Virus record (IMG/VR): IMGVR_UViG_3300000101_000036
Coordinates: 12,621-43,585 of that record
Reading direction: 5' to 3' (one strand)
DNA from: a virus
Length of the DNA: 30,965 nucleotides
The notes beneath the pieces were generated by a model. That model did not search any database and was not told the DNA's origin. It saw nothing but the letters and a program-made list of their open reading frames with translations. Positions within the stretch are counted from its first letter, which is position 1. Every line of letters begins with the position of its first letter. Below, one piece after another: positions 1 to 26,887 of the stretch. Both the position numbers and the translations under genes were made by a program.

Positions 1-2535
1 GTTGGACTACTTGTAGGTGTTGGTGTCGGTGTGTTAGTCGGACTTGGGGTTGGCGTGTTTGTAGGTGTAGGAGTTGGAGTTACCACATCAACGTCCACAT
101 CAAAATCACAATTTGGTGTTGGGCTAGGTGTAGGTGTGTTTGTCGGTGACGGAGTTGGACTATTAGTCGGTGTTGGTGATGGTGTGTTAGTCGGACTTGG
201 GGTTGGCGTGTTTGTAGGTGTTGGTGTAGGTGTACTTGTAGGGCTTGGAGTAGGTGTAGGAGTTACCACATCAACGTCTATGTCAAAATCACAATTTGGT
301 GTTGGGCTAGGTGTAGGGGTATTAGTTGGACTTGGACTTGGTGTTGGTGTGTTTGTTGGACTTGGACTTGGTGTTGGTGTAGGTGTACTTGTAGGGGTAG
401 GTGTCGGCGTAGGTGTTACCACGTCAATATCTATATCGAAGTCACAATTTGGTGTTGGGGTTGGTGTAGGTGTACTACTTGCCGTTGGGGTTGGAGTACT
501 ACTTTCTGTAGGTGATGGTGTAGGTGTTGGTGTGGGTGTACTACTTGCCGTTGGGGTTGGAGTACTACTTTCTGTAGGTGATGGTGTAGGTGTTGGAGTT
601 ACCACATCAATATCAATATCAAAATCACAATTTGGTGTAGGTGATGGTGTTGGTGTGTTAGTAGGACTTGGTGTAGGACTACTTGTTGGTGTGGGTGTAG
701 GTGTCTCCGTACTTGTTGGAGTTGGTGATGGTGTATTTGTAGGACTTGGTGTAGGTGTAGGTGTTACCACATCAACATCTATATCAAAGTCACAGTTAGG
801 TGTAGGTGTTGGAGTGGGAGTATTTGTTGGGCTCGGTGTTGGTGTATTAGTTGATGTTGGACTTGGTGTTGGTGTGTTAGTAGGCGTACTTGTTGGAGTA
901 TTAGTCGGGCTAGGTGATGGTGTTGGGGTAGGTGTTACCACGTCAACATCTATGTCGAAATCACAATTCGGTGTTGGTGAAGGTGTTGGGGTATTAGTTG
1001 GTGTATTAGTCGGAGTACTTGTTGGAGTACTTGTTGGAGTACTTGTAGGTGTGTTAGTTGAGCTTGGTGATGGTGTTGGTGTAGGAGTTACCACATCAAC
1101 ATCTATATCAAAATCACAATCTGGTGTTGGACTTGGTGTTGGTGTGTTAGTAGGCGTACTTGTTGGGGTATTAGTTGGTGTGTTAGTAGGTGTACTTGTA
1201 GGGCTAGGTGTAGGAGTTGGAGTTACCACATCAACGTCCACATCAAAATCACAATTTGGAGTAGGTGAAGGTGTTGGGGTATTAGTTGGACTTGGTGTTG
1301 GGGTATTAGTTGATGTTGGTGTAGGGGTATTAGTCGGAGTACTTGTTGGTGTTGGTGTAACCAAATCTACATCAATATCAAAATCACAGTTCGGCGTTGG
1401 GGTTGGTGTAGGTGTACTACTTGTCGTTGGGGTCGGAGTTGAACTGCTTGTTGGGCTCGGTGTAGGAGTAGGTGTAACTAAATCTACGTCAATATCAAAA
1501 TCACAATTTGGTGTAGGGGTAGGTGTTGGTGTTGGATCTGGTTCTACTGTGATAGTCGGTGTTGGAGTAGGACTACTTGTTGGAGTGGGGGTAGGTGTAA
1601 CTAAATCCACATCAATATCGAAATCACAATTTGGAGTACTCGTAGGTGTTGGTGTTGGATCTGGTTCTACTGTGATAGTCGGTGTTGGATCTGGTTCTAC
1701 CGTAGGTGTTGGTGTAGGAGTAACTAAATCAACATCGATATCAAAATCACAGTCTGGTGTAGGTGTTGGTGTAGGTGTTGGATCTGGTTCTACTGTGGGT
1801 GTTGGTGTTGGTGTACTACTTTCTGTAGGTGTAGGTGTTACTACATCAATATCGATATCAAAATCACAATCTGGTGTTGGGCTTGGTGTAGGTGTAGGCG
1901 TACTACTTTCTGTAGGTGTAGGTGTTACTACATCAATATCTATATCAAAATCACAGTCTATCGTAGGGGTAGGTGTTGGACTACTTGTTGGGCTTGGTGT
2001 GGGAGTAGGGGTAGTTAGATCAACATCAATATCAAAGTCACAATCTGTTGTTGGACTCGGTGTTGGTGTAGGAGTAGGTGTAACTAAATCCACATCAATA
2101 TCGAAATCACAGTTTAGAGTTGTTGTGGGAGTAGGTGTTGGAGTTGGTGTGGTTAAATCCACGTCAACGTCAAAATCGCAATCTAATGTAGGGGTTGGTG
2201 TAGGTGTACTACTTTCTGTAGGTGTTGGAGTTGGTGTGGTTAAATCCACGTCAACGTCAAAGTCACAGTTAGGTGTAGGTGTTGGTGTACTACTTTCTGT
2301 AGGTGTTGGTGTAGGCGTTGGGGTACTACTTTCTGTTGGGCTAGGTGTAGGTGTTGGTGTAGGCGTTGGGGTACTACTTTCCGTAGGTGTTGGTGTAGGC
2401 GTTGGGGTACTACTTTCTGTAGGTGATGGTGTAGGCGTACTAGTGGGGCTTGGAGTTGGTGTTGGGGTAGGTGTACTACTTTCTGTAGGTGTTGGAGTTG
2501 GGGTAGGTGTACTTGTGGGAGTAGGGCTCGGCCCT
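1..2535 (-). repeat. Coding Thr-Pro-rich array with 18 CDFDxDxD units
   Basis: Read on the minus strand, this segment encodes (TP)n stretches with Ser, Asn, Glu-Ser-Ser and Val-Glu-Pro-Asp insertions, interrupted by 18 copies of a unit like [13 protein letters not shown]. On the plus strand the units are marked by tcaca/tcgca cores starting at 2263, 2176, 2107, 2038, 1951, 1864, 1747, 1624, 1501, 1384, 1249, 1114, 961, 790, 625, 442, 289 and 106. All spacings are multiples of three. Copies 1-4 and 7-10 have VDL after the acidic core, copies 5-6 and 15-16 have DIDVV, and the other late copies have DVDVV. The array continues past the window edge. Confidence 0.95.
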
Positions 2536-5500
2536 GGTCGTCTAATATCATCACATGGTCCTGTTGCAATATACTCAATAGTCGGAGCATATACTTTAGA
2601 TATGATTATCCAACAATTTACACCTGGCGATAATTTCTGAATTACATTAATCTCATCATTTTGTGAACCTAGATTAAATTCAATATTAACTGAATCTCCT
2701 ATATCATATTCTTCACTTAGTTCAATATATCTTATCTCTCCCGTATCAAAATGTTTTACTTTGAATGCATTCAGGTTGTCACAATCATCTAACCCTGTGA
2801 GATCTCTCTCAATCTCATCTATATCCGGCATGTCAGAACAATCTAACTTGTCTTGAAAGTATTGTTGCATTTTCATGTCCATGTTTTCGAACTTCTGTTC
2901 GTCATGTCCAACTAATATACAGTCTTCAGAATCACCATTGAAAAGGATAACTTCAGAACAATTACTTGAGATATCGTAAATTGATGTTGGATTAACATTT
3001 AAATGGTAGAACAGATCTCTAGCACAGTAGTCTAAATCAACTTTGAGTACTTCAATAGGGAAACCGTGTTCGTTAAAAATATAATCACCACTTTCATAGT
3101 AACCAACTTGATAACTACAACAAGGATCAGTCGGGTCGTCGGGTCTTGGATATAATTCTTCGGGATACTTTTCAGTAAATCTCCAATTCTCTCCCTGACT
3201 TCCATCTTCCATTGTTTTAGTCATTACCCATAATCTTGTGTTAGGTAAAAAACTAAACCTTTCATTTATTTTATTAATCTTTGTGGATCCCAAACAGTCT
3301 TTATTTTCAACTGTTACAACCTTATAATCATAAGAGAACGAATAACCACTAATAACGGCATCATTATAGTCTTGAGATGAGAAAGGACAATCTTTATATA
3401 CTCCCGAAAGTAATTGATCACCTATTACAACGTTTTCAATGTTTATTTTTTCTAAGGTATTATTATCTAAATAAGTTTGTATTTGATCCCAAGTTGTGTT
3501 ACCGTCGAGGATAACACCATTATTAACTTTTATAACTTTAGTGTTTTGTCTCAGACCATAATCAAACGTAGGTCTATATTGTACGATAGGTTGTAGGGTA
3601 TAACCTGAGTAATTATCACAAAAAGTAATACCAGACTGACTATTAAGAGGATCACTACTATCAGGATTATCCCCATCATCATAAGTGTCAAACGAATATT
3701 GTAAATAATGACTTCTTGATGTAGTAACATCATCACCATCTACAGGATCCCATTCAAACTTTTGTTGTAACCCCTCTATTCTTATTTTTTGATCACAATT
3801 CGCGGCATCTGTTATTGATATATCAATAATATCATTTTCTCTAACATTATTAACAACAAACGTACATCCTGAAACGTGATCAACAGTATATGTGTGACCA
3901 CTGATTGATTCATTATACCCACCCACACAATCTATGAATATGTTTAATGGCCACGATGTATTATATGGTGGACAATCGGTACATGGATCTCCATCATCTA
4001 CAGTATCTTCATTACCAAATGTAACTCCCGATACTTCAAAATATACATCCTCCATTAAGATACAATCGTCCTCATCCTCAGGTAATGTGTAGAAAGTATT
4101 AGGACCGTAAACCTTAACTTTAGGGTCACATTGTGTAGTGCCCGTTAGATATGTCGATTCCCAAAAGAAATCAAACGTACTTAAATCTAAACAATCTAAA
4201 TCCGCAGGTATGTATGCGTCACCGTATGGATCACCAGGGTTTGAAATATATAATTGTGTGTCGTACGTGAACGGCGTAATTCTTATTTTTTGGACACCAT
4301 CACTATCAGTAAAGATTTCGTGAGAAACTATAGGTACATTTTCATATCCATAGTTTTCACCATTAGTTGATAGTTGATTATTAAACCCATTTTCTATATT
4401 TTGATTTTCATCACTTGTTTCCGTATTACCCGTGATTCTTTCATATCCTTCTCCACCCGCGTGGTTACTAATGGTATCATAACCAGTATATGCCGTTTTA
4501 GTATAATATTTTTCATTTATTTGAGAGAATATGCTATTAACCGCATTGACCCATAAAGGATCCAATACATCTCTGTCAGGGTTTAGATTACATTTAAAAT
4601 CACATAGTAGTGGTAAGTGTTTTGACCCATCAAAGGTCGTTCCACCGTCGAAAACAACGTCGTTAATAGTTGTACATTCGGAAGTAGAAATAAATGGATC
4701 AAATAATTGTCCCCCTGTAAGTGTGATCGGAGAAGACGCCGTATATTCTTCCCCCATTAAAACTATCTTTAGGACGTAAGTGACTCCACTTACAACAGTT
4801 AACCCTCTAAATAAATCCTTGTCACCTAAAAAATAAACTTCTAAATCTTCCTCTATAGAGTGTTCGAAACCTAATTTAGGGTATAGATTATCCTCAACCT
4901 GTTCAATAGTACATGGTTTCAAATAATCGTGTTTAGATCTACCAATACGACTATTTTCTAAAATATTACCGCCCGTCCATAAAGTTGTTGCAGGAACAAA
5001 CTGTTCCACAATCTCCACCCAATGAGGACTCATTCTATTAATGAACTCATTGACTGTTGGGAAACTATATGGTGAACCCACCTTTTCCAAATACCCCCAA
5101 TAAACATCTTCTAATTGAATATAAGATTTTTGGTATTTTACAGTGTGTGAATTACGTATTTGTTCATTTAATACGTTATCCATATATTCTGCAAACGTAA
5201 AACCTGTTTGTGGTTGAAGAGTTTTTAATCCAAAACTCACCTCTAAATCTCTCGACTTTTTATATACATCATAATCAATACCTTGTGCAGAAGACAAGTA
5301 GATTTGTATATTTTTTCTATTTAAGGTTTTTGAGTCTACATCCGATAGTAATTCTGTCTTATTGTTATCAATCGTGTTGTGTAATTCATGTCCGTAATCT
5401 AATCCGTAAAATTGTCTATATAAATCAAAATAATCCTCACCATAAGTGTAGTCCTTATTTTTTGTTTTTATAATTTTAGGATTGGACAGTAAGTTAGAAT

Positions 5501-7247
5501 TCTCAGTATCTAATTCGGTTGAGGATCTATGTTGTAGAGATATTTCATACCAACCCGAACCTTTTTGAAAAAATACGTCATTATTCTCACTTACAATCTT
5601 TTGTACATCACCATACTTTGTTACACCTGTTAAAACTATAGGGTATTCATCAGTTTGGTATGTAGTTGAACCAGTGGTAGTTACTCCTGTATATGTAAAA
5701 GAAGATGAAATATCTTCAAAATCCATTTGACCGACAGTAAATGTTTTTTCTAACTGTGTTAAGTCATATATGTCACTATCGATATCAGAGGAAACCTTCT
5801 TAACGTCATCGTATTTGTATACGTGTTCATTAATTTTTATTAATGGTTCTGGTGCCCCGATAAATCTTAAGAAGAACTCAATAGATTTTCTTGTACCTTT
5901 TGCTTTATATATTCTTACAAGATTAATAACTAATCTTCTATAAAATTCCGCCTCTGCCTCAACCATATTCATTCCAAGGTTGTTACCTTCGAATTGACTA
6001 TCTATTCTTGAATAAAGTGTGTCTTCTAATGATTTTTCATCAAATAGATTTACAGAATCTAACCCTAATGTGTTTGATAGATTTTTTAATAGTACGTCAG
6101 GGATATTATTAATCTTATCATAACTCACATTTCTCATGTACGCTATGTTATCTATAAATTTCTTGACGGAATCAAAACCACTACCGTACAACTGAAACAT
6201 AGAAGACATTCTTTGATCTTCCGTATCAAATTCATTTAACGATGCTGTGGTTAGAAATCTTGAAATTAGGTTCGATTTATACTGATCAACTTCGTCACCT
6301 ATTGATTTTAAAGTTTGTAGGTATCCAATATAATCAGTACCACCAATCTTTATGTTCCAACCATCTTTAAATAATGGCCAACTAATTTTAGTTGTTGTGG
6401 TCTCTGTTTTAGACCCATCTAAAGAGTCCTTTGGTAATTTAAATTCGGCAGTGTACTTAGGTGTAGATTCTCTATCTAAAATTAGACTCTCTAATTCATC
6501 TAAACTTCCGAAAAACTCCTCTACTGTCTGACTGATTGGTCTAATTAAGAAACTCTCACTGTATGTGTTACCATTAAAGGGTCTTCCTTTAACCTTTACT
6601 GTTATAAGTCCGTCATTTCCTGCCTTAGTATAGGTTAGTATTGGATATTCAACCTCATCTATAATAACCGAATACTTAGAATAATTTTCAAAGAAATTTT
6701 TGAACTCATTACTGACATCGGGACTTACATTACTTAAAGGTTTTTCAAGTACAACATCTAATGGATTGAATATTTTTGATTTTTCAAACTTAAAAGTTGT
6801 TGTCCTCGCTTTAAGACTATAATTTATATTCTCCGCAGTGTATTGTGAAAATGATACGGGAGTTTCTTTGTCTATAAAGAAACCCGCAGGGAACTGTTCT
6901 ACTATATTATTAACTGAAGATGATAGTCTTTTACTTAAAGACCCAAATAATGTCTTAGAACCCGCGTCTTTGTCCTGTCTGAACTTTACTTTACCCTCTT
7001 TCTTTACGGATCTTTCCGATTTTGTTTTAGGTGCGTTAGTTTCTTCTTTAAGGTTCTCAATTGTTAAGAACTCAGAAAAAGGTACAGATGTAAAACTCTT
7101 AGTATCTCTTTGTGGTATTGTCTTATCTATCGAAAAATTTGTCGCAGTCAACTGACTTGACCCGTTAGTAATTTGATTACCAACTAAGTTGTCATTAAAG
7201 GTATCCCCTCCACTTGCAGATTGACTTGGAACTTTTCTTTTCGCCAT
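1..7247 (-). CDS. Giant baseplate/tail-fibre-like virion protein with Thr-Pro repeat tail (3' end beyond window)
   Basis: The minus-strand frame opens at ATG 7247 ([15 protein letters not shown]) and reads without a stop to base 1, giving at least 2415 residues; the C-terminus lies outside the window. I checked that both ends share one frame. Around residues 448-463 the motif [17 protein letters not shown] recalls the conserved KGT...LG segment of P2 gpI-type tail proteins, and [11 protein letters not shown] follows near 749-759. Residues of about 890-1560 are beta-rich-looking with scattered Cys. From about 1573 onward the chain is Thr-Pro-Ser rich and carries the 18-copy array listed separately. 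The start shares one base with the preceding stop (TAATG), so translation is probably coupled. Its position at the end of the baseplate operon suggests a distal tail or host-contact role. Virion protein is likely; the gpI relationship rests on short motifs only. Confidence 0.85.
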
Positions 7248-8161
7248 TATTCAGTGATATCATCAAAGTTTTTAGTTTCATCAATTTCGTCCCTTTCTTC
7301 TCTAACCTCGTAAAGTGTTTCGTTGAACTCATCTCTTACTTCAAACAAGTTGAATTGTTTGTAGATATTGTTTTCCGCAGTGTATATCGTATATATTCCA
7401 TCAGAAATAGATTTAGTTTGGTTACCGTAAAATGCGTAAGCCAATGTTGTCTCATCATGTTCTACCATATCAATTTCAATCGTTGTTGGATTAAAAAATG
7501 TGTTTGATAAAATTATATTTTGAGACGGTTCCCCAATAAAGGGAACTGTATTCGGTCTATTCGATGGTGCAGATGACGGAGTTACCGTCAAAAACAACAA
7601 ATTAGTTGCCTGATCTGTGTATTGATACCTTATCGCCTTTTGAGTTGTACTAGTTAAATTTGATGTGATCGGAGTACAGTAGAATGAAGATGTAACAACC
7701 CTATAAAAATTAGGGGTTTTACTTCCATCATCGTTCAAATACTCTACTCTATATCCAACTAAACCTTGAGGGTTGAATTTATTTCTATCTGTTGAGGGTA
7801 CATTACTTAAGTCTATAATAATCCCCCTTACCGATGGTAGTGATGCTAACACCCCACAATCAGTTATAGAAGTTCTTATTTGTTTAGGTCTAAGATGTAA
7901 GGTATATATACCTAACTCATCAAAGTCCGCTGTGTCTAACTTTAAATTATATAACCCACCTAAAATTTCTGCATCGGGTGCGTTTGGTGCATCCGTCGTA
8001 TCTGAATTGTGATAGATAGGTGTTAATATATCTTCCGAATTTAATTTTTTAAATTGTACAGGTGCGGACGACGTTCTCCCAGAGACATAATGATAGAAAA
8101 TTTCTACGTCTGCTGGTGACACATCTGCCGGTCTTACTGTTCCATAACTACCTACTGCCAT
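7247..8161 (-). CDS. Hypothetical virion protein (304 aa)
   Basis: I do not recognise a named family. The protein starts [18 protein letters not shown] and seems to be a mostly beta-strand structural protein. It has a central hydrophobic stretch near residues 95-120 ([15 protein letters not shown]) and a very acidic, charged C-terminus (residues of about 270-304, rich in Glu, Asp and Arg) that could form a helix. The stop overlaps the ATG of the giant downstream gene by one base, so the two are probably made together. The leader is AT-rich with an AAAGGAT element only two bases before the ATG, too close for an ordinary Shine-Dalgarno site. Its place in the tail operon argues for a baseplate or fibre-attachment part. 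Confidence 0.8.
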
Positions 8162-8186: not shown

Positions 8187-9104
8187 CTATTGTTTTTTAA
8201 CTTGGAAAAATCCATTTCCGTAGATATCTATTTCACCTACGTTATCAATTTCTCCTAATCTTAGGTTCATTTCTAAGACCCCTTGCTTACCTCTTTCAAC
8301 AAACACATCAGAAAAAATGGTTGGTTCATCAATAAAACCAATGAAATGTTCATTCCTTGTTAACATCTCATTAAAGACCTCTTCTTTTTGATAATCACTT
8401 GTTGTTCCTGTTATTGTTGTTATTCCATCATCATAATCTTTATATGATAAATTATCTATTGTATATCCCGTATAACTACCTACACCATCAGTACCGACCG
8501 TTGTTCCTTGGTATGTACTTTCACCGTATCTCTTTAATTCACTTAACCTACTTCTTCCTTTAGCCGCAAAATATATTGGACCATCTGAATCCTTTTCAAC
8601 ATAATCCAAATCATTTATATAATTTTGAGTGATCGTAACCCCCGTAGTATATGGTAACGTAAACGGACCAAACGATCCGTTAGGATTAGTGACAGTTGTG
8701 TTTTTAGGTACCGTAATTTTTTTCGTTATTTTTTTCTGAGTCCAATTATTACTTAAACTAATAGACACATTATAAGTACCTGCAGAAGGAAATGTATGTT
8801 GTTTATATTCTAAATTATTACCAAGACCCACACCGATAGTATCTACCGTACCATCACCATAATCAATGGAAAAGGTTTCGTTTTTTATTATCCTTAATGC
8901 ATCCCTGTTAACTGAATTATAAAGTCTTATTGTATTACCGGATGTATGTTGGTAATTAAAGTTTGTTATTTGTTCAACTTGTTCTATATCTCCCTCAAAT
9001 CCAACCATTCCCCCCATCTCATAACCTTTACTGTTTAAGTATATTGGTAAATGATATGTCGTACCCGTTACTGACCTTAATATTTTATAGTAATCTTTTT
9101 TCAT
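8187..9104 (-). CDS. Virion protein with PKD-like domain (305 aa)
   Basis: Residues of about 78-116 contain FSIDYGDGTVD followed by HTFPSAGTYNVSIS. This is the pattern of a PKD-type Ig-like fold (a D/WGDG turn, then H-x-F/Y, then G-x-Y-x-V). PKD domains usually mediate protein or carbohydrate contact on extracellular or virion proteins. The C-terminus (VLEMNLRLGEIDNVGEIDIY) looks like a further beta domain. The start codon overlaps the stop of the upstream 315-aa gene by four bases (ATGA), a coupling arrangement typical of phage morphogenesis operons. I infer a tail or baseplate accessory protein; the exact part is unknown. Confidence 0.8.
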   Translation of the reverse strand: MKKDYYKILRSVTGTTYHLPIYLNSKGYEMGGMVGFEGDIEQVEQITNFNYQHTSGNTIRLYNSVNRDALRIIKNETFSIDYGDGTVDTIGVGLGNNLEYKQHTFPSAGTYNVSISLSNNWTQKKITKKITVPKNTTVTNPNGSFGPFTLPYTTGVTITQNYINDLDYVEKDSDGPIYFAAKGRSRLSELKRYGESTYQGTTVGTDGVGSYTGYTIDNLSYKDYDDGITTITGTTSDYQKEEVFNEMLTRNEHFIGFIDEPTIFSDVFVERGKQGVLEMNLRLGEIDNVGEIDIYGNGFFQVKKQ

Positions 9105-10048
9105 GAAGATGCGTCGTTTTCGTTTAATGGTGGTTCTGCAGTGGGTGATGGTGGGGATACAAAGTCCTCACTTAACTCGTAAAACTTTATTGGGTCTCCA
9201 CTCATTCCTTTTCTATTCGAGGTGTAGGGGGATGATCCATCGTATTCCGAAATTGTATAATGATAAGTGGGTATGTCCGTCCTATTCATTTCAACTTGAA
9301 AGTATAAATCTTCTTCCTCCGTTACAGTTGGTGTATTTGTTATTTGTTTATTTGCAAACTGTACTTTAGTTCCGTCCGCAGAATTATAAAATTTTGCCGT
9401 CATGTAAAACGTAGTACCCGTAAGTTCGGTCTCTTCTAAAACAGTATCATCATGAAACCAAAAAAGGTACATGTTCTCCTTGTTTCTCATACTTGATCCA
9501 AAAAATACAGGTACATATATTTTTTCAAATTTGTTTGTAAAGGTTACTCTTTCACCAATTGCGGGTGCTAAATTTTTTGCAAAAACCAATCTTCTATTGG
9601 ATCTATTAGGTGGTTCATTATTGGGTGTTTTATAAAACTCCAACCTAAAAAAACTGTATTTTAAGTTAGCCATTAATTTATCTGTTTGACTAATACCTAC
9701 ATTCTTATAATCTAAAGTGTAATTATTTGACGAATCCTTAAAATAAAAGTGAAACCATATATCGGTCTGCTCCACACTATTTACTGTTGTTGTAAATAAA
9801 GACGCCGATGCCGCTTCACTATTGTCTTCTGCGGGAGCCGTAGATGCGGGTGGTGGTTGACCATTACTAGATATATATGGTTTATGGATATATCTATTAG
9901 TCTCATAGTTCTCCACAGGGTTAATAATATCCCTTAAAACCTCATCCTCATACGATTGAAAATTCTCATCCCAACCCGCATCGGTTTTAAAGTTTTGTTC
10001 CTTATTAATTAATAAGTTCTTGTTATTTTGGTTGAATCTAATTTTCAT
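9101..10048 (-). CDS. Hypothetical virion protein with Pro-rich tail (315 aa)
   Basis: No family is recognised. The N-terminus (MKIRFNQNNKNLLINKEQNF) is polar and there is no signal peptide. A low-complexity Ala/Pro segment sits near residues 65-85 (PPPASTAPAEDNSEAASAS), likely a flexible linker between two beta-rich parts. The C-terminus is Pro/Ser/Glu rich (FVSPPSPTAEPPLNENDASS). The ATG directly abuts the TAG stop of the upstream 581-aa gene, and the stop overlaps the next ATG by four bases. Context in the baseplate block makes a structural role likely. Confidence 0.78.
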   Translation of the reverse strand: MKIRFNQNNKNLLINKEQNFKTDAGWDENFQSYEDEVLRDIINPVENYETNRYIHKPYISSNGQPPPASTAPAEDNSEAASASLFTTTVNSVEQTDIWFHFYFKDSSNNYTLDYKNVGISQTDKLMANLKYSFFRLEFYKTPNNEPPNRSNRRLVFAKNLAPAIGERVTFTNKFEKIYVPVFFGSSMRNKENMYLFWFHDDTVLEETELTGTTFYMTAKFYNSADGTKVQFANKQITNTPTVTEEEDLYFQVEMNRTDIPTYHYTISEYDGSSPYTSNRKGMSGDPIKFYELSEDFVSPPSPTAEPPLNENDASS

Positions 10049-11794
10049 CTAGCACAGTCCGTCGTTATCCTCAGTGAAATTAGTGAGACCGTCATTTTTA
10101 TTCATAAATGTCTCTTCATTTCTAAGGTAAAAGTTTATGTCAGATTTGACGTAATGTTGTCCATTTGTGAATGGGTGGTTTGTACCAAACCCATCAGGAT
10201 CAACATAACCATGATCATATAAATCTCTCCATTTCCATAAGACCCTATATTCGTCGTAAGTAGAATTCTCTGGTAGTCCATATATTTGATCCGTATTTGC
10301 GGTCTCCACATATGGTGATAATTCTCTTAGTTTAACTCTTTGATGAGGTTGGTAGTATAACCCTAAGGGGTTTGTAACAGTCGATCCCGCATTTGGGTCT
10401 ATTTGTCCGTGATTAAAAATATTAAAATCAATTGTGTATTTGTGGAATGACTCAGATAATATTGTTTCTTTAAAATCTTCTTTACTATACTCCACAAATG
10501 CTCCCAACATAACATCATCTTTCTGAAGTTCAGTACCCCGACTAAATGTAAAACCGCTATTAGTAAAATTGGTTGACTGAAGTCCTGAATCTGACCCCGC
10601 AAATGTTCTATTAAAATGATTATCCACCCAATTATTGTGGAAATGAAATTTATATCCATGTCTTGGGGGATATTGGAAATATCCATTACCATTTTTAAAA
10701 ACCTTTGTTACGTACGCGTCGGTAATTGTATATCCTAAATTATTTGTTAAACCATTTATATCTATCTCATCTTTAAAGTGAAATAGGACCGTTTCAGGTC
10801 TATTCTGTACCGTATACACATCATTTCTATTGTCTGCAGTTTCAAACTGTAATTTTCTTTCTATTTCAAAAACAGGTGTTTCAAAACCTGTTCTATCTAT
10901 TATACAGTCGTCGGTATTTGTAAGTATTTTATGTTTATGAACATAATACTCAGATGTTGTTCCCGACATTCTTAATTTGTCTATACATCTTTTACCAAAA
11001 ACAACTCCACTCATTGTTTGAGAACTAGATAGTGCCGACTTTTGTATGATTAACACATATTTCTCAGAGTCAAATATTTCATTACCTACTGAAGATATTG
11101 GGAATATTCTATCTAATTCAGTACCACTACTTATTGAAGTTCCTGAGACTATTACAAATTCCCCCTGTTTCATATTATGTGGTATTGGACTTATAAGTTC
11201 GTAGTAGTTCGGATACTCCGTTACCCTAAACGGTACCCCGTTAGATGCGGTAAAACTATACTCGGTATTACCCGATAGGGTATACTTCATTTGATGTGTT
11301 GAATCTTTATCGTAGACATACGATAAGAACACATTCCAATTAGTGGAAGCTGAGTCTATTTCATTTATTACTCTATGTGTGGTGTCACCAGTTATAAATA
11401 TATTAGAGTCGTAGGTCCCCATTGTGGTTCCTGTTGGAATAGACACTTCCCTAACATAGTCGTTCCTAATGAACGCAAATTCATTATATGGTAAGTACCC
11501 CGTAAAATCGGCGTCAAGACCATCACCAATGACATAAAGGTTATTCAGTAAGGGATCATAGGTGGTTGTTCCACTATAAGTGTTTCTAAACACCATGTTC
11601 ATCTTACCATAAATTCTATATTTGGTACTTTCATTACGTTCCTTTCTATAAAGTTCCGCAATGTCTAATACTATATTTTTATCACCTTCTCTTAATAAAC
11701 TTTTATCTTCTTCAAAATTTATTCTTAGAGTTAAGTCTTCGGATTCCGCCTTTTTATATCTCTTACTCGGCGATACAATTTTCTTTTTTATCAT
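10049..11794 (-). CDS. Hypothetical baseplate/tail structural protein (581 aa)
   Basis: No family is recognised from motifs. It starts MIKKKIVSPSKRYKKAESED, a basic N-terminus, and continues as a Thr/Gly/Tyr/Asn-rich chain without membrane segments. This is typical of beta-structured phage tail proteins. It is close in size to T4 gp10 (about 600 residues), but I see no sequence motif that would support that identity. Its ATG overlaps the stop of the 1294-aa gene by four bases, and its TAG stop abuts the next ATG, placing it inside the tightly packed baseplate operon. Structural role likely, specific role unknown. Confidence 0.82.
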   Translation of the reverse strand: MIKKKIVSPSKRYKKAESEDLTLRINFEEDKSLLREGDKNIVLDIAELYRKERNESTKYRIYGKMNMVFRNTYSGTTTYDPLLNNLYVIGDGLDADFTGYLPYNEFAFIRNDYVREVSIPTGTTMGTYDSNIFITGDTTHRVINEIDSASTNWNVFLSYVYDKDSTHQMKYTLSGNTEYSFTASNGVPFRVTEYPNYYELISPIPHNMKQGEFVIVSGTSISSGTELDRIFPISSVGNEIFDSEKYVLIIQKSALSSSQTMSGVVFGKRCIDKLRMSGTTSEYYVHKHKILTNTDDCIIDRTGFETPVFEIERKLQFETADNRNDVYTVQNRPETVLFHFKDEIDINGLTNNLGYTITDAYVTKVFKNGNGYFQYPPRHGYKFHFHNNWVDNHFNRTFAGSDSGLQSTNFTNSGFTFSRGTELQKDDVMLGAFVEYSKEDFKETILSESFHKYTIDFNIFNHGQIDPNAGSTVTNPLGLYYQPHQRVKLRELSPYVETANTDQIYGLPENSTYDEYRVLWKWRDLYDHGYVDPDGFGTNHPFTNGQHYVKSDINFYLRNEETFMNKNDGLTNFTEDNDGLC

Positions 11795-15735: not shown

Positions 15736-17568
15736 TTAAAATGTAGTGGAACCTAAAGATTTAACCCTAATTTTTATGTCTTTATTAGGGAATCTAATTT
15801 GGAAGATTTGATTACTCTTCATAAAAATTGTTGAATCTGATTGAGCAACTTGTTTTGTCTCTTCGTCAGTATATCCTTGACTTACTTCCGCTGTGGAATA
15901 TTCTCCACCTGTTTTTCCGAAAACTCTTAAGTCAACAACATTAACAATACCTGATATATTTGATATTTCTTTCTGTAACTCACCTATGAATAGTGGGTCC
16001 CCCATTTTTCTTTTCTCTATATTGAAGAATGATGTAGATTGATTAACAACATCTTTAAGTATGTCTGTCTGATTAATGTTTTTATCAACTAATAAGTCTA
16101 TTTCTAACCCCAAATCAAGGACTTCTCCACTTTGTATGTCGATATAGTCATTAATCATTCTATAGTTCGTTAGATACCTTAATATGTTGTTTTTAAGTGT
16201 TGTTGAGACAGTATCGTTTAAGTTACCCTCATCATCATAGGAAAGAAGTTTTATTTTAACTTTATTATCTTCTTCCATGACATTTACCTTTGCGGGTGCT
16301 CCGTATGTAGACGGCATGGTCTCTATTAAAACTTTATAATCATTAAGTGTTACCGCCCTATCCTGAGCCGCAAAGTTATATCCAACCATATTTCTTATTT
16401 CCTCAATCGTTGGTTGATCTGATCCACCCACCGCCGGAGTTACATTGGTTGCATTTAAAGAACGTATAACTTGATTGTTCACATTTCCTAATGGTCCTGC
16501 CACATTAAACTCTACGTTTTCTATACTTGTTATTACATTTACACCAAGATTACTATTTTTACCCCCACCTACTCTATATTTTATGAATACGGTCGAATTT
16601 TTCTTAGGTGTTGACCCTAATGATAAATTATTTAAGTACGAACCTAAGTTAACCTTCAACGTACCTTCATTGAACTTGTCTAGATTATCAAGTGGATCAA
16701 TATTGCCAGATCCAAAAGTCACTGACATATATCCTTCAGGTGTATATTCTGAAATAAATTTGTTTGTTACTCTTTTATATTCACCCGCAGTAAAGTTATC
16801 CGTATCCGATGTTTTGGTTTTATTAGGAAGAAATACTTTATCCTCCATCAAACTTTTAACTTCATACCATCTATTTTTTTCATTTTGAAATTCAGATGTT
16901 GAGGGGTTAGATGTGAAGTTAGTACCTTCCTTATGAATTATTGATGTTACACCTAACACATTTTGTTCGGGTAAAAACAGTTTTAAAAATGGTTTTTGGT
17001 CTTGTGATCCAATTACTCTTCTGAAAACTCTTGAAACACCATTAACTATTGCATCTCTTTTAGTTATTGTATATGACACCAATTTATTGTTACTATCGAA
17101 GTTTGGTATTTTAAGTCTGTTAGGTTCTCCTTTACTATTAAATGGGCTTGAGAAATCTATGTCCTCTATAGTTTCAAATGTTTGTCCTCCACCCGATACT
17201 TGTGCCCCTGCTTTGAGTATACCCAAATATCTCTCATCTTCTTTATCACCTCTTACAGGTACGTTAACTGAAAAATCGGATAAAGCAACCGACGGACGAT
17301 TACCAGGTACATTAATACCATATGTTTTTGCAATATGAAAAAGTGACCTTCTTTGTTGTGCAAAATCTAACATCGTTTCTTGCCAAACTCTATCAATGTG
17401 ATAGTGTAGGTTATCACCTATCGCGGCGTTAAGATCTAACATCACCGAATAAATCGATGCATCGTTAGTGTTCTTTATTAAATCAGGATAAAAGTCCTTA
17501 GTTAAATTAACTAATTCCTCCCTTAATCCTGCGAAGTCTCTTTTAGCGTATGATATTTTTTTTGCCAT
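15736..17568 (-). CDS. gp6: Baseplate wedge subunit, T4 gp6 / gpJ-like
   Basis: At 610 residues it is close to T4 gp6 (about 660). The N-terminus (YAKRDFAGLREELVNLTKDF) with the following NDASIYSVMLDLNAAIGDNL is typical of gp6/gpJ baseplate proteins. The C-terminal half carries the characteristic sequence of the family: GGSDQPTIEEIRNMVGYNF, then AVTLNDYKVLIETMPSTYG, then a C-terminal domain ending in NISGIVNVVDLRVF. In contractile tails gp6 dimers link the wedges into the ring around the hub. The gene follows gp25 with a one-base gap, the same wedge neighbourhood as in other contractile systems. The start MAKKISYAKRDF is clear. Confidence 0.93.
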   Translation of the reverse strand: MAKKISYAKRDFAGLREELVNLTKDFYPDLIKNTNDASIYSVMLDLNAAIGDNLHYHIDRVWQETMLDFAQQRRSLFHIAKTYGINVPGNRPSVALSDFSVNVPVRGDKEDERYLGILKAGAQVSGGGQTFETIEDIDFSSPFNSKGEPNRLKIPNFDSNNKLVSYTITKRDAIVNGVSRVFRRVIGSQDQKPFLKLFLPEQNVLGVTSIIHKEGTNFTSNPSTSEFQNEKNRWYEVKSLMEDKVFLPNKTKTSDTDNFTAGEYKRVTNKFISEYTPEGYMSVTFGSGNIDPLDNLDKFNEGTLKVNLGSYLNNLSLGSTPKKNSTVFIKYRVGGGKNSNLGVNVITSIENVEFNVAGPLGNVNNQVIRSLNATNVTPAVGGSDQPTIEEIRNMVGYNFAAQDRAVTLNDYKVLIETMPSTYGAPAKVNVMEEDNKVKIKLLSYDDEGNLNDTVSTTLKNNILRYLTNYRMINDYIDIQSGEVLDLGLEIDLLVDKNINQTDILKDVVNQSTSFFNIEKRKMGDPLFIGELQKEISNISGIVNVVDLRVFGKTGGEYSTAEVSQGYTDEETKQVAQSDSTIFMKSNQIFQIRFPNKDIKIRVKSLGSTTF

Positions 17569-17569
17569 C

Positions 17570-18022
17570 TTATATGTTAATTATTATAAAATCTGATGAA
17601 CTAAACGCACCATTATTAACTGTGTAATCAATTTTAACTTTTGCGGTGTATGGTTTAGTTGATTCATCCGCAAGTCTAAATAATCTTTCATCATCTTCTT
17701 CATCCACTGTTGTTACAGGATCGGAATCATCTTCTGAAGAAATCACCTTAATTGAATTAATATCTAGATTCGGTAAATATTTCTTACAACCCTCCCTTAT
17801 TTCTTCCTCAATTAAATTAAACGTAACCATATCATTTTGATCAAAGATGTATTCATATATTCTTGTCCCAAAATCAGGTAAATAATATCTACTACCCTTC
17901 TTCGTAAGAATAAGGTGAATAAGGTTTGCCCTGACCTCTTTTTCAGGGTTTGTAGTCATTTTTAAATAGTCTCCTGTCAAACTCTCTCTGAAAGGAAAGT
18001 CAATTCCATATGTTACTGCCAT
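17570..18022 (-). CDS. gp25: Baseplate wedge subunit, gp25/GPW family
   Basis: Its length is 150 residues when started at MAVTYGIDFPFRES (T4 gp25 is about 132). A longer frame opens at 18070, but that start lies inside the terminator hairpin and would add a hydrophobic, non-family leader, so I reject it. The gp25/GPW core is visible: NPEKEVRANLIHLILTKKGS followed by YYLPDFGTRIYEYIF, where a P-x-F-G-x-R/K-x-x-x-x-x-F pattern is the family signature, then a helix LIEEEIREGCKKYLP. gp25 nucleates sheath assembly on the baseplate. It is the first gene after a strong terminator, so it probably starts a new transcription unit with its promoter in the short AT-rich leader 18023-18062. Confidence 0.92.
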   Translation of the reverse strand: MAVTYGIDFPFRESLTGDYLKMTTNPEKEVRANLIHLILTKKGSRYYLPDFGTRIYEYIFDQNDMVTFNLIEEEIREGCKKYLPNLDINSIKVISSEDDSDPVTTVDEEDDERLFRLADESTKPYTAKVKIDYTVNNGAFSSSDFIIINI

Positions 18023-18062
18023 ATTAATAAATATAATCAATACTAAAATGGTTGTAAATAAA

Positions 18063-18085
18063 AAACCCACCTTGATGGTGGGTTT
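18063..18085 (-). terminator. Rho-independent terminator after nrdA
   Basis: AAACCCACC (18063-18071) pairs perfectly with GGTGGGTTT (18077-18085) around a five-base loop. On the minus strand the stem is followed by a T-rich run (GGTGGGTTTTTTATTT). It lies about 30 bases past the nrdA stop and before the gp25 leader, dividing the DNA-metabolism block from the baseplate block. Confidence 0.88.
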
Positions 18086-26515: not shown

Positions 26516-26887
26516 CTACTTAAGTGTCAGTAAATAAGACAGTTTGTTGATTTGTGCCAACATTTCGTCTTTAATGTTTAGTAGATCTGTATCTTTTGGG
26601 TTTATTTCCATTTGGTGTAGACTACCCCTTACGGTCTTAATCATTCCAAGTACGTCAACGTCAGAAAGGTTTTGAATAGATATATGTGTTTCTTCCTCTT
26701 CTAATTTAAATCTACCGTAAATACCCATTGCAATTTCAACGAAACTATCAATTAAACCATCTAACACATTATACGTTTCTCCAAACGACACATGTTTTGC
26801 ATGACTCTTAGTTTGCCAATGTAGTACCTTAAGTTGTGATTGTAATTCAAGAAAGAATTTTATATTACCACTCAACCTCATTTTCAT
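26516..26887 (-). CDS. Dps/ferritin-like small protein (123 aa)
   Basis: The N-terminal half, LKVLHWQTKSHAKHVSFGET followed by YNVLDGLIDSFVEIAMG, resembles the first helices of Dps proteins (HW..K....H......DELID...E). H32, D47 and E51 keep the exact 15- and 4-residue spacing of the Dps ferroxidase ligands; the first ligand candidate H23, in the HW pair, is nine rather than 12 residues before H32. The rest is helical, ending LAQINKLSYLLTLK. At 123 residues it is shorter than bacterial Dps (about 150-165). Starts at 26887 or 26881 are both possible. The gene overlaps the upstream coding frame by 17-23 bases. Ferritin-like fold is inferred, iron or DNA binding unproven. Confidence 0.72.
   Translation of the reverse strand: MKMRLSGNIKFFLELQSQLKVLHWQTKSHAKHVSFGETYNVLDGLIDSFVEIAMGIYGRFKLEEEETHISIQNLSDVDVLGMIKTVRGSLHQMEINPKDTDLLNIKDEMLAQINKLSYLLTLK

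Follow-up and report, generated by a model that had tools for sequence, protein, structure and literature searches.

Repeat stalks between an anchor and a tip are known from the Periscope Proteins and bacterial fibrillar repeat adhesins. Their folded repeats of about 50–165 residues are very similar in DNA, often are joined by short linkers and vary in copy number by recombination (PMC9704523, PMC8201768). In phages, the genes of the BW3 proteins (T4 gp7, P2 gpI and A511 gp104) lie close to gp25 and gp6 in the baseplate operon. BW3 is typically where receptor-binding proteins attach, and in A511 it forms an extended chain that runs through connector dimers, much as a string passes through beads; inter-chain disulfides have been described in the tail and baseplate of phage Milano (PMC10811340). 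A further type of adhesin is built of SprB and cadherin repeats (Pfam PF13573, PF00028), which are folded beta domains.

We analysed a 30,965-nucleotide stretch of viral DNA (the window) that spans bases 12,621–43,585 of the 43,585-base IMG/VR record IMGVR_UViG_3300000101_000036; coordinates prefixed with L002 are those of the record. One of its genes encodes a protein with the layout of a fibre or adhesin, namely a conserved N-terminal part, a stalk made of a Thr-Pro array and a distinct, conserved tip domain. As in the fibrillar adhesins, the repeat number varies between close relatives (the arrays L004 and L005 differ by one unit). Unlike in these adhesins, the array belongs to a phage, and its unit is a core of 11 residues instead of a repeat of more than 50. 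Its cores are not near-identical in DNA (17 of 19 are distinct), its four-fold synonymous sites are saturated, and its long Thr-Pro linkers grow along the chain. We are not aware of a graded Thr-Pro array in any BW3 protein, and a limited literature search found no relevant or close equivalent of graded linker length in repeat proteins. SprB and cadherin repeats both occur in the next gene, along with two cores, whereas the N- and C-terminal parts of the array protein itself match no Pfam family.

An array gene in a baseplate operon

The array gene extends beyond window base 1 to L002:11927, and the missing stretch was fetched to give the complete protein of 2,646 aa. Core 19 is followed by a Thr-Pro tail of 35 residues and a conserved, cysteine-rich C-terminal domain of about 150 residues that occurs only with these arrays. 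AlphaFold models this domain confidently as beta-rich; it has no match in the PDB below E 0.04. For the array, pLDDT is mostly below 50 and no docking of cores is visible in the model.

Table 1. Position of the array gene, its parts and its neighbours (window coordinates unless prefixed with L002)
Feature	Position	Strand	Basis or remark
Array gene as far as it lies in the window (2,415 of 2,646 aa)	3..7247	minus	ORF and translation
Conserved N-terminal part without repeats (1,571 aa), putative wedge protein of the baseplate (gp7/gpI type)	2535..7247	minus	134 IMG/VR relatives
Coreless Thr-Pro leader (about 88 residues) ahead of core 1	2271..2534	minus	
Graded array, 18 in-window cores, linkers from 12 to 50 residues	78..2267	minus	
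Core 1 (11 residues)	2235..2267	minus	
Core 18 (11 residues), final in-window core	78..110	minus	
Core 19, outside the window	L002:12497-12529	minus	
Recent in-linker duplication between cores 15 and 16	450..596	minus	66 bp x 2.2, 96% match
Upstream neighbour (304 aa), possible partner	7247..8161	minus	Most conserved (68–98% identity)
Three more operon genes (305, 315, 581 aa)	8187..11794	minus	Order kept in relatives
gp6-like baseplate wedge protein	15736..17568	minus	PHROG 219/6 and Flavobacterium phage immuto
gp25-like baseplate wedge protein	17570..18070	minus	PHROG 261/43
Ferritin-like-looking protein (123 aa)	26516-26887	minus	LHWQTKSHAKH
Gene directly after the array gene (2,053 aa), outside the window	L002:5747-11908	minus	
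Separate gene with FFDxSGSM-motif domain	L002:3863-4993		Resembles von Willebrand A
Homologue of the second array gene, cut by contig end	L002:3-536		Variant cores

Upstream of the array gene lie genes for proteins of 304, 305, 315, 581 and 1,294 aa, whose order is conserved in relatives, and then the gp6- and gp25-like genes. The array gene thus sits in a baseplate operon, as genes for BW3 proteins do. Together with genes for a ribonucleotide reductase, a DnaB-like helicase, an exonuclease, a UvsX-like recombinase and a single-strand binding protein, the baseplate genes indicate a T4-like phage. The nearest isolates are Tenacibaculum and Cellulophaga phages for the reductase and include Flavobacterium phages for gp6, so that the host probably is a flavobacterium (Flavobacteriia). 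The 123-aa protein in Table 1, with its ferritin-like look, is encoded next to the gene for the single-strand binding protein.

In a pairwise profile comparison, the N-terminal part matched a protein from the immuto baseplate operon (2.6e-4), aligned at a KGT-containing motif. Tail_P2_I gave a weak match (E 0.054, in 2 of 26). Direct comparisons with T4 gp7 (0.26), A511 gp104 (0.38) and P2 gpI (0.57) gave no detectable match, a search of the PDB gave none, and the AlphaFold model of this part is poor (mean pLDDT 46). From its operon position, the immuto match and the weak Tail_P2_I signal, the N-terminal part is an unproven candidate for a wedge protein of the gp7/gpI type.

The 2,053-aa protein encoded directly downstream carries a Thr-Pro leader, two cores, cadherin domains and a dozen SprB repeats. 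Its cores lie 73 residues apart (73–93 at the widest in four relatives), which corresponds to the long end of the adjoining gradient. A domain with an FFDxSGSM motif that is encoded separately in this phage is fused after the array protein in L060 and L064.

The core motif and its spacing across arrays

The core follows the consensus C-D-F-D-[IV]-D-[VI]-D-x-x-T-P-T-P. Residues C, D, F, D and D at positions 1, 2, 3, 4 and 6 are invariant in all 117 cores of clade A, and C, D and F are invariant in 108 cores from other main-clade lineages. Among the window cores, diversity at the three codon positions is 0.145, 0.026 and 0.434. This pattern and the distinct DNA of the cores indicate strong selection at the protein level and not recent copying, in agreement with the selection for core identity that the first-pass annotation had proposed. 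Judged from the consensus, the core may form an amphipathic beta-strand, hydrophobic on one face and acidic on the other, with a single cysteine. Calcium bridging or disulfides at the cores are possible; for the latter, the cysteine links in the Milano virion provide a precedent, albeit in a different phage and in different proteins. An origin of the core from a host or prophage was rejected, as its pattern had no matches in the genome collection.

The 18 in-window cores of the first-pass annotation and their 17 spacings (29, 23, 23, 29, 29, 39, 41, 41, 39, 45, 45, 51, 57, 55, 61, 51 and 61 residues) were reproduced exactly. The further rise beyond base 1, for which it had proposed a check, holds for the one additional unit: the spacing between cores 18 and 19 is 67, the largest in the whole array. 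Spacing and position correlate with a Spearman's rho of 0.95 for the 17 in-window spacings (permutation P 5e-5, the lowest value that 20,000 shuffles allow) and of 0.96 once all 18 are included; from base to tip, the increase is about 2.8-fold. All window linkers have an even number of residues. After the coreless leader of about 88 residues ahead of core 1, the gradient starts anew from its lowest value: the spacing is long, drops and then grows. Such a long leader is present in nearly all arrays, with 38–116 residues in the others of the main clade.

With the N-terminal 1,571 aa as query we found 33 loci, and a profile search yielded 134 confirmed IMG/VR relatives, 80 of which were kept. Neither the N-terminal part nor the C-terminal domain had a relative among the isolates of the phage collection. 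Some distant relatives have Thr-Pro tails without cores and some end directly after the N-terminal part; the array thus is an optional C-terminal extension. The coreless Thr-Pro-rich tails of L066, L067, L072 and L104 contain small folded-looking domains between Thr-Pro stretches.

Scored with a motif pattern that includes variant cores, all 11 complete arrays rise, as do, judging by positive rho, all incomplete arrays that were scored. The complete arrays are those of the window (19 cores, rho 0.96), L007 (22, 0.95), L013 (18, 0.94), L023 (17, 0.96), L024 (11, 0.96), L015 (16, 0.90), L018 (10, 0.91), L021 (15, 0.79), L032 (8, 0.90), L060 (13, 0.89) and L064 (16, 0.93), with 11–22 cores in those of clade A. 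Rho thus ranges from 0.79 to 0.96 with a permutation P of at most 0.005 in each, values that should not be multiplied since the relatives share ancestry and the arrays are not fully independent. The order of linkers in relatives therefore is not random, which the first-pass annotation would have taken as a refutation, and we have hardly any doubt that the spacing gradient is real and conserved. The array of L016 has a spacing of 151 between two late cores, where it accommodates an additional domain of about 100 residues that looks folded.

IMG/VR contigs are mostly short-read assemblies, several contigs end within the array, and that of the window has undetermined bases, so repeats might have been collapsed or misjoined. 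It is extremely improbable that the gradient arises in this way, given the distinct DNA of most cores, the recurrence of the trend in all lineages and the presence of the same arrays in separate records, with 16 of 16 units shared between L004 and L005, 11 of 17 between L013 and L023, and 13 of 15 between L015 and L016.

We fitted first and last spacings in 11 arrays (ten complete ones, leaving out L023, and the nearly complete L004). The first range from 17 to 35 and the last from 50 to 86. The last/first ratio is 2.2–3.0 in ten of them, from 8 to 22 motifs, the exception being L064 with 3.9. In the same set, the slope tracks 1/n (r 0.94). Between lineages it varies fivefold, from 1.4 to 7.0 residues per unit, and there is no single fixed geometry; a concentric or spiral arrangement with a constant linker step per layer was dropped for this reason.

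Graded arrays also occur elsewhere. An unrelated 652-aa protein on the L018 contig (L055/L121, IMGVR_UViG_3300042731_005759) has a second array with spacings of 20, 20, 20, 19, 23, 23, 23, 37 and 63 (rho 0.86, P 0.002); its homologue in the window phage carries the variant cores CDFDVSFVEGSYPTPTP. In the tree of N-terminal parts, core arrays fall on two separate branches. On the second, with CTFDIDV and CEFVIDT cores, L096 rises (rho 0.80, P 0.0015), and L094 and L099 do so weakly.

Spacing by position and the turnover of units

The main rival to selection is an inherited cline, in which an ancestral order from short to long linkers was passed on through local duplication, loss and in-register recombination. 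Several observations are expected under such a cline too. Neighbouring units resemble each other more closely than distant ones do, the clade-A arrays have their core subtypes (LT, LV and VV) arranged by position, and the listed orthologous linker pairs between relatives (at least 85% identity) are identical in length. The unit that distinguishes L005 from L004 is an additional one of local length, and a slope that falls as 1/n is what internal duplication would produce.

Other observations are harder to reconcile with inheritance alone. The window and L013 share 92% DNA identity on both array flanks, yet none of 18 units is shared at 85% or more, and the best unit match (0.76) is about the background within an array (0.74). 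Divergence at four-fold sites is 0.24 between the flanks of the two but 0.52–0.59 among units within one array. The units therefore predate the split between the window phage and L013, and yet they are no longer orthologous, which points to arrays that exchange or replace units from a pool while the rise persists. The spacing also rises within a single core subtype, and the arrays of the unrelated gene and of the distant branch do the same.

We compared the arrays with two kinds of model; these order tests, and the register test below, were picked after the data had been seen. A positional trend with independent noise beat a random walk with drift, which was rejected as the poorer fit in all 12 arrays (summed log-likelihood gain 33). 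Statistically, the spacing thus is set by position and outlasts the turnover of units. We let arrays evolve neutrally in a simulation, with units duplicated locally or lost and with lengths that changed symmetrically. The gradient then fades slowly, and a rho of at least 0.79 is retained by about 60–70% of arrays after 2 events per unit. After 8 such events, the share has fallen to 7–17%, which speaks against an unselected cline, although, with event rates that were assumed, the simulation is indicative only. On balance, we lean towards a gradient that is maintained by selection, and an inherited cline seems rather unlikely as the full explanation.

As one of two options, the first-pass annotation had suggested slippage in the Thr-Pro linkers. 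Free slippage does not agree with the constant length of the listed orthologous linkers, nor with the poor fit of the random walk. The recent 66-bp duplication between cores 15 and 16 does show that duplication within a linker is one route to length. It is also conceivable that linker length reflects age, with units born at the N-terminal end and linkers that lengthen over time. Short linkers are N-terminal everywhere, as this requires, but the N-terminal cores are less alike than the C-terminal ones in 8 of 9 arrays, which contradicts it and leaves the idea with next to no credibility.

Possible functions of a graded stalk

The array protein probably is a baseplate fibre or adhesin, to judge from its layout and gene position. 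The explanation that we favour as a whole, a baseplate-anchored fibre or adhesin with selected graded spacing, is put forward tentatively and falls somewhat short of probable. A conserved N-terminal part of about 1,480 aa would sit in the baseplate of the T4-like phage, as its operon suggests, while the Thr-Pro leader and then the array would project outward and end in the beta-rich, cysteine-rich domain. The cores probably serve as docking or cross-linking points that would join adjacent chains or hold a partner protein, and the Thr-Pro linkers may be stiff, extended spacers. From base to tip, the spacing rises about 2.6-fold independently of unit number. Since it is set by position and survives the turnover of units, we take selection to keep a graded contact density, which would give a stiff stalk base with densely placed contacts and a more compliant tip where contacts are sparse. 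The adjoining cadherin/SprB adhesin gene with its two cores was counted as support. The least certain step is the mechanical one; a role of the gradient in stiffness and compliance is conceivable but clearly doubtful. The graded spacer in a tail fibre, as proposed in the first-pass annotation, is still the best reading of the linkers, with the fibre role itself deduced from context.

Alternatively, the cores could thread through several molecules of a partner protein or cap them, in the manner of the A511 BW3 chain across connector dimers (PMC10811340), with cargo that is larger or more widely spread at the tip. An isolated, strand-like core with fixed C, D and F would suit such an arrangement, and the conserved neighbour genes, above all that for the 304-aa protein, offer candidate partners. 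However, the 304- and 581-aa proteins have no sequence match to T4 gp8, nor the 304-aa protein to A511 gp105. Phages in which the protein with the N-terminal part lacks an array (L080, L110) have the 304-aa protein too, which thus is not array-specific. It had no family or PDB match, and a profile search of four neighbour genes against the PDB returned nothing significant. We regard threaded partners as unlikely.

Unequal spacing could also serve as a key that forces parallel chains to pair in full register and prevents slippage of identical cores. In the window array, off-register coincidences do drop about tenfold, to 469 as compared with 4,845 pairs at equal spacing. In most arrays, however, the rising order has no advantage over random permutations of its spacings, and L064 has six consecutive equal spacings of 27. 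The order test thus disfavours register as the cause of the rise, for which it is a very improbable explanation; it could be a side benefit.

Returning to the graded fibre, the array proteins may represent a class of stalks in which the spacer is graded by position, with an end-to-end ratio of about 2.6 that rescales to unit number and is selected despite the replacement of units. We hold this view with some reserve, as slightly less secure still than the explanation as a whole. If the array protein is a BW3 protein, its position is telling, since this is where receptor-binding proteins typically attach. Repeat stalks usually are described as uniform, with a length set by the number of units; here, the order of the linkers outlives the units themselves. 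With such arrays, it can be tested whether selection acts on how the repeats of a disordered protein are spaced, independently of their sequence, a question that otherwise tends to be a matter of discussion. If the graded reading is true, a single polypeptide would carry a genetically encoded gradient of mechanics or contact density, and if the mechanical reading is true as well, these arrays would be a natural template for protein fibres of graded stiffness.
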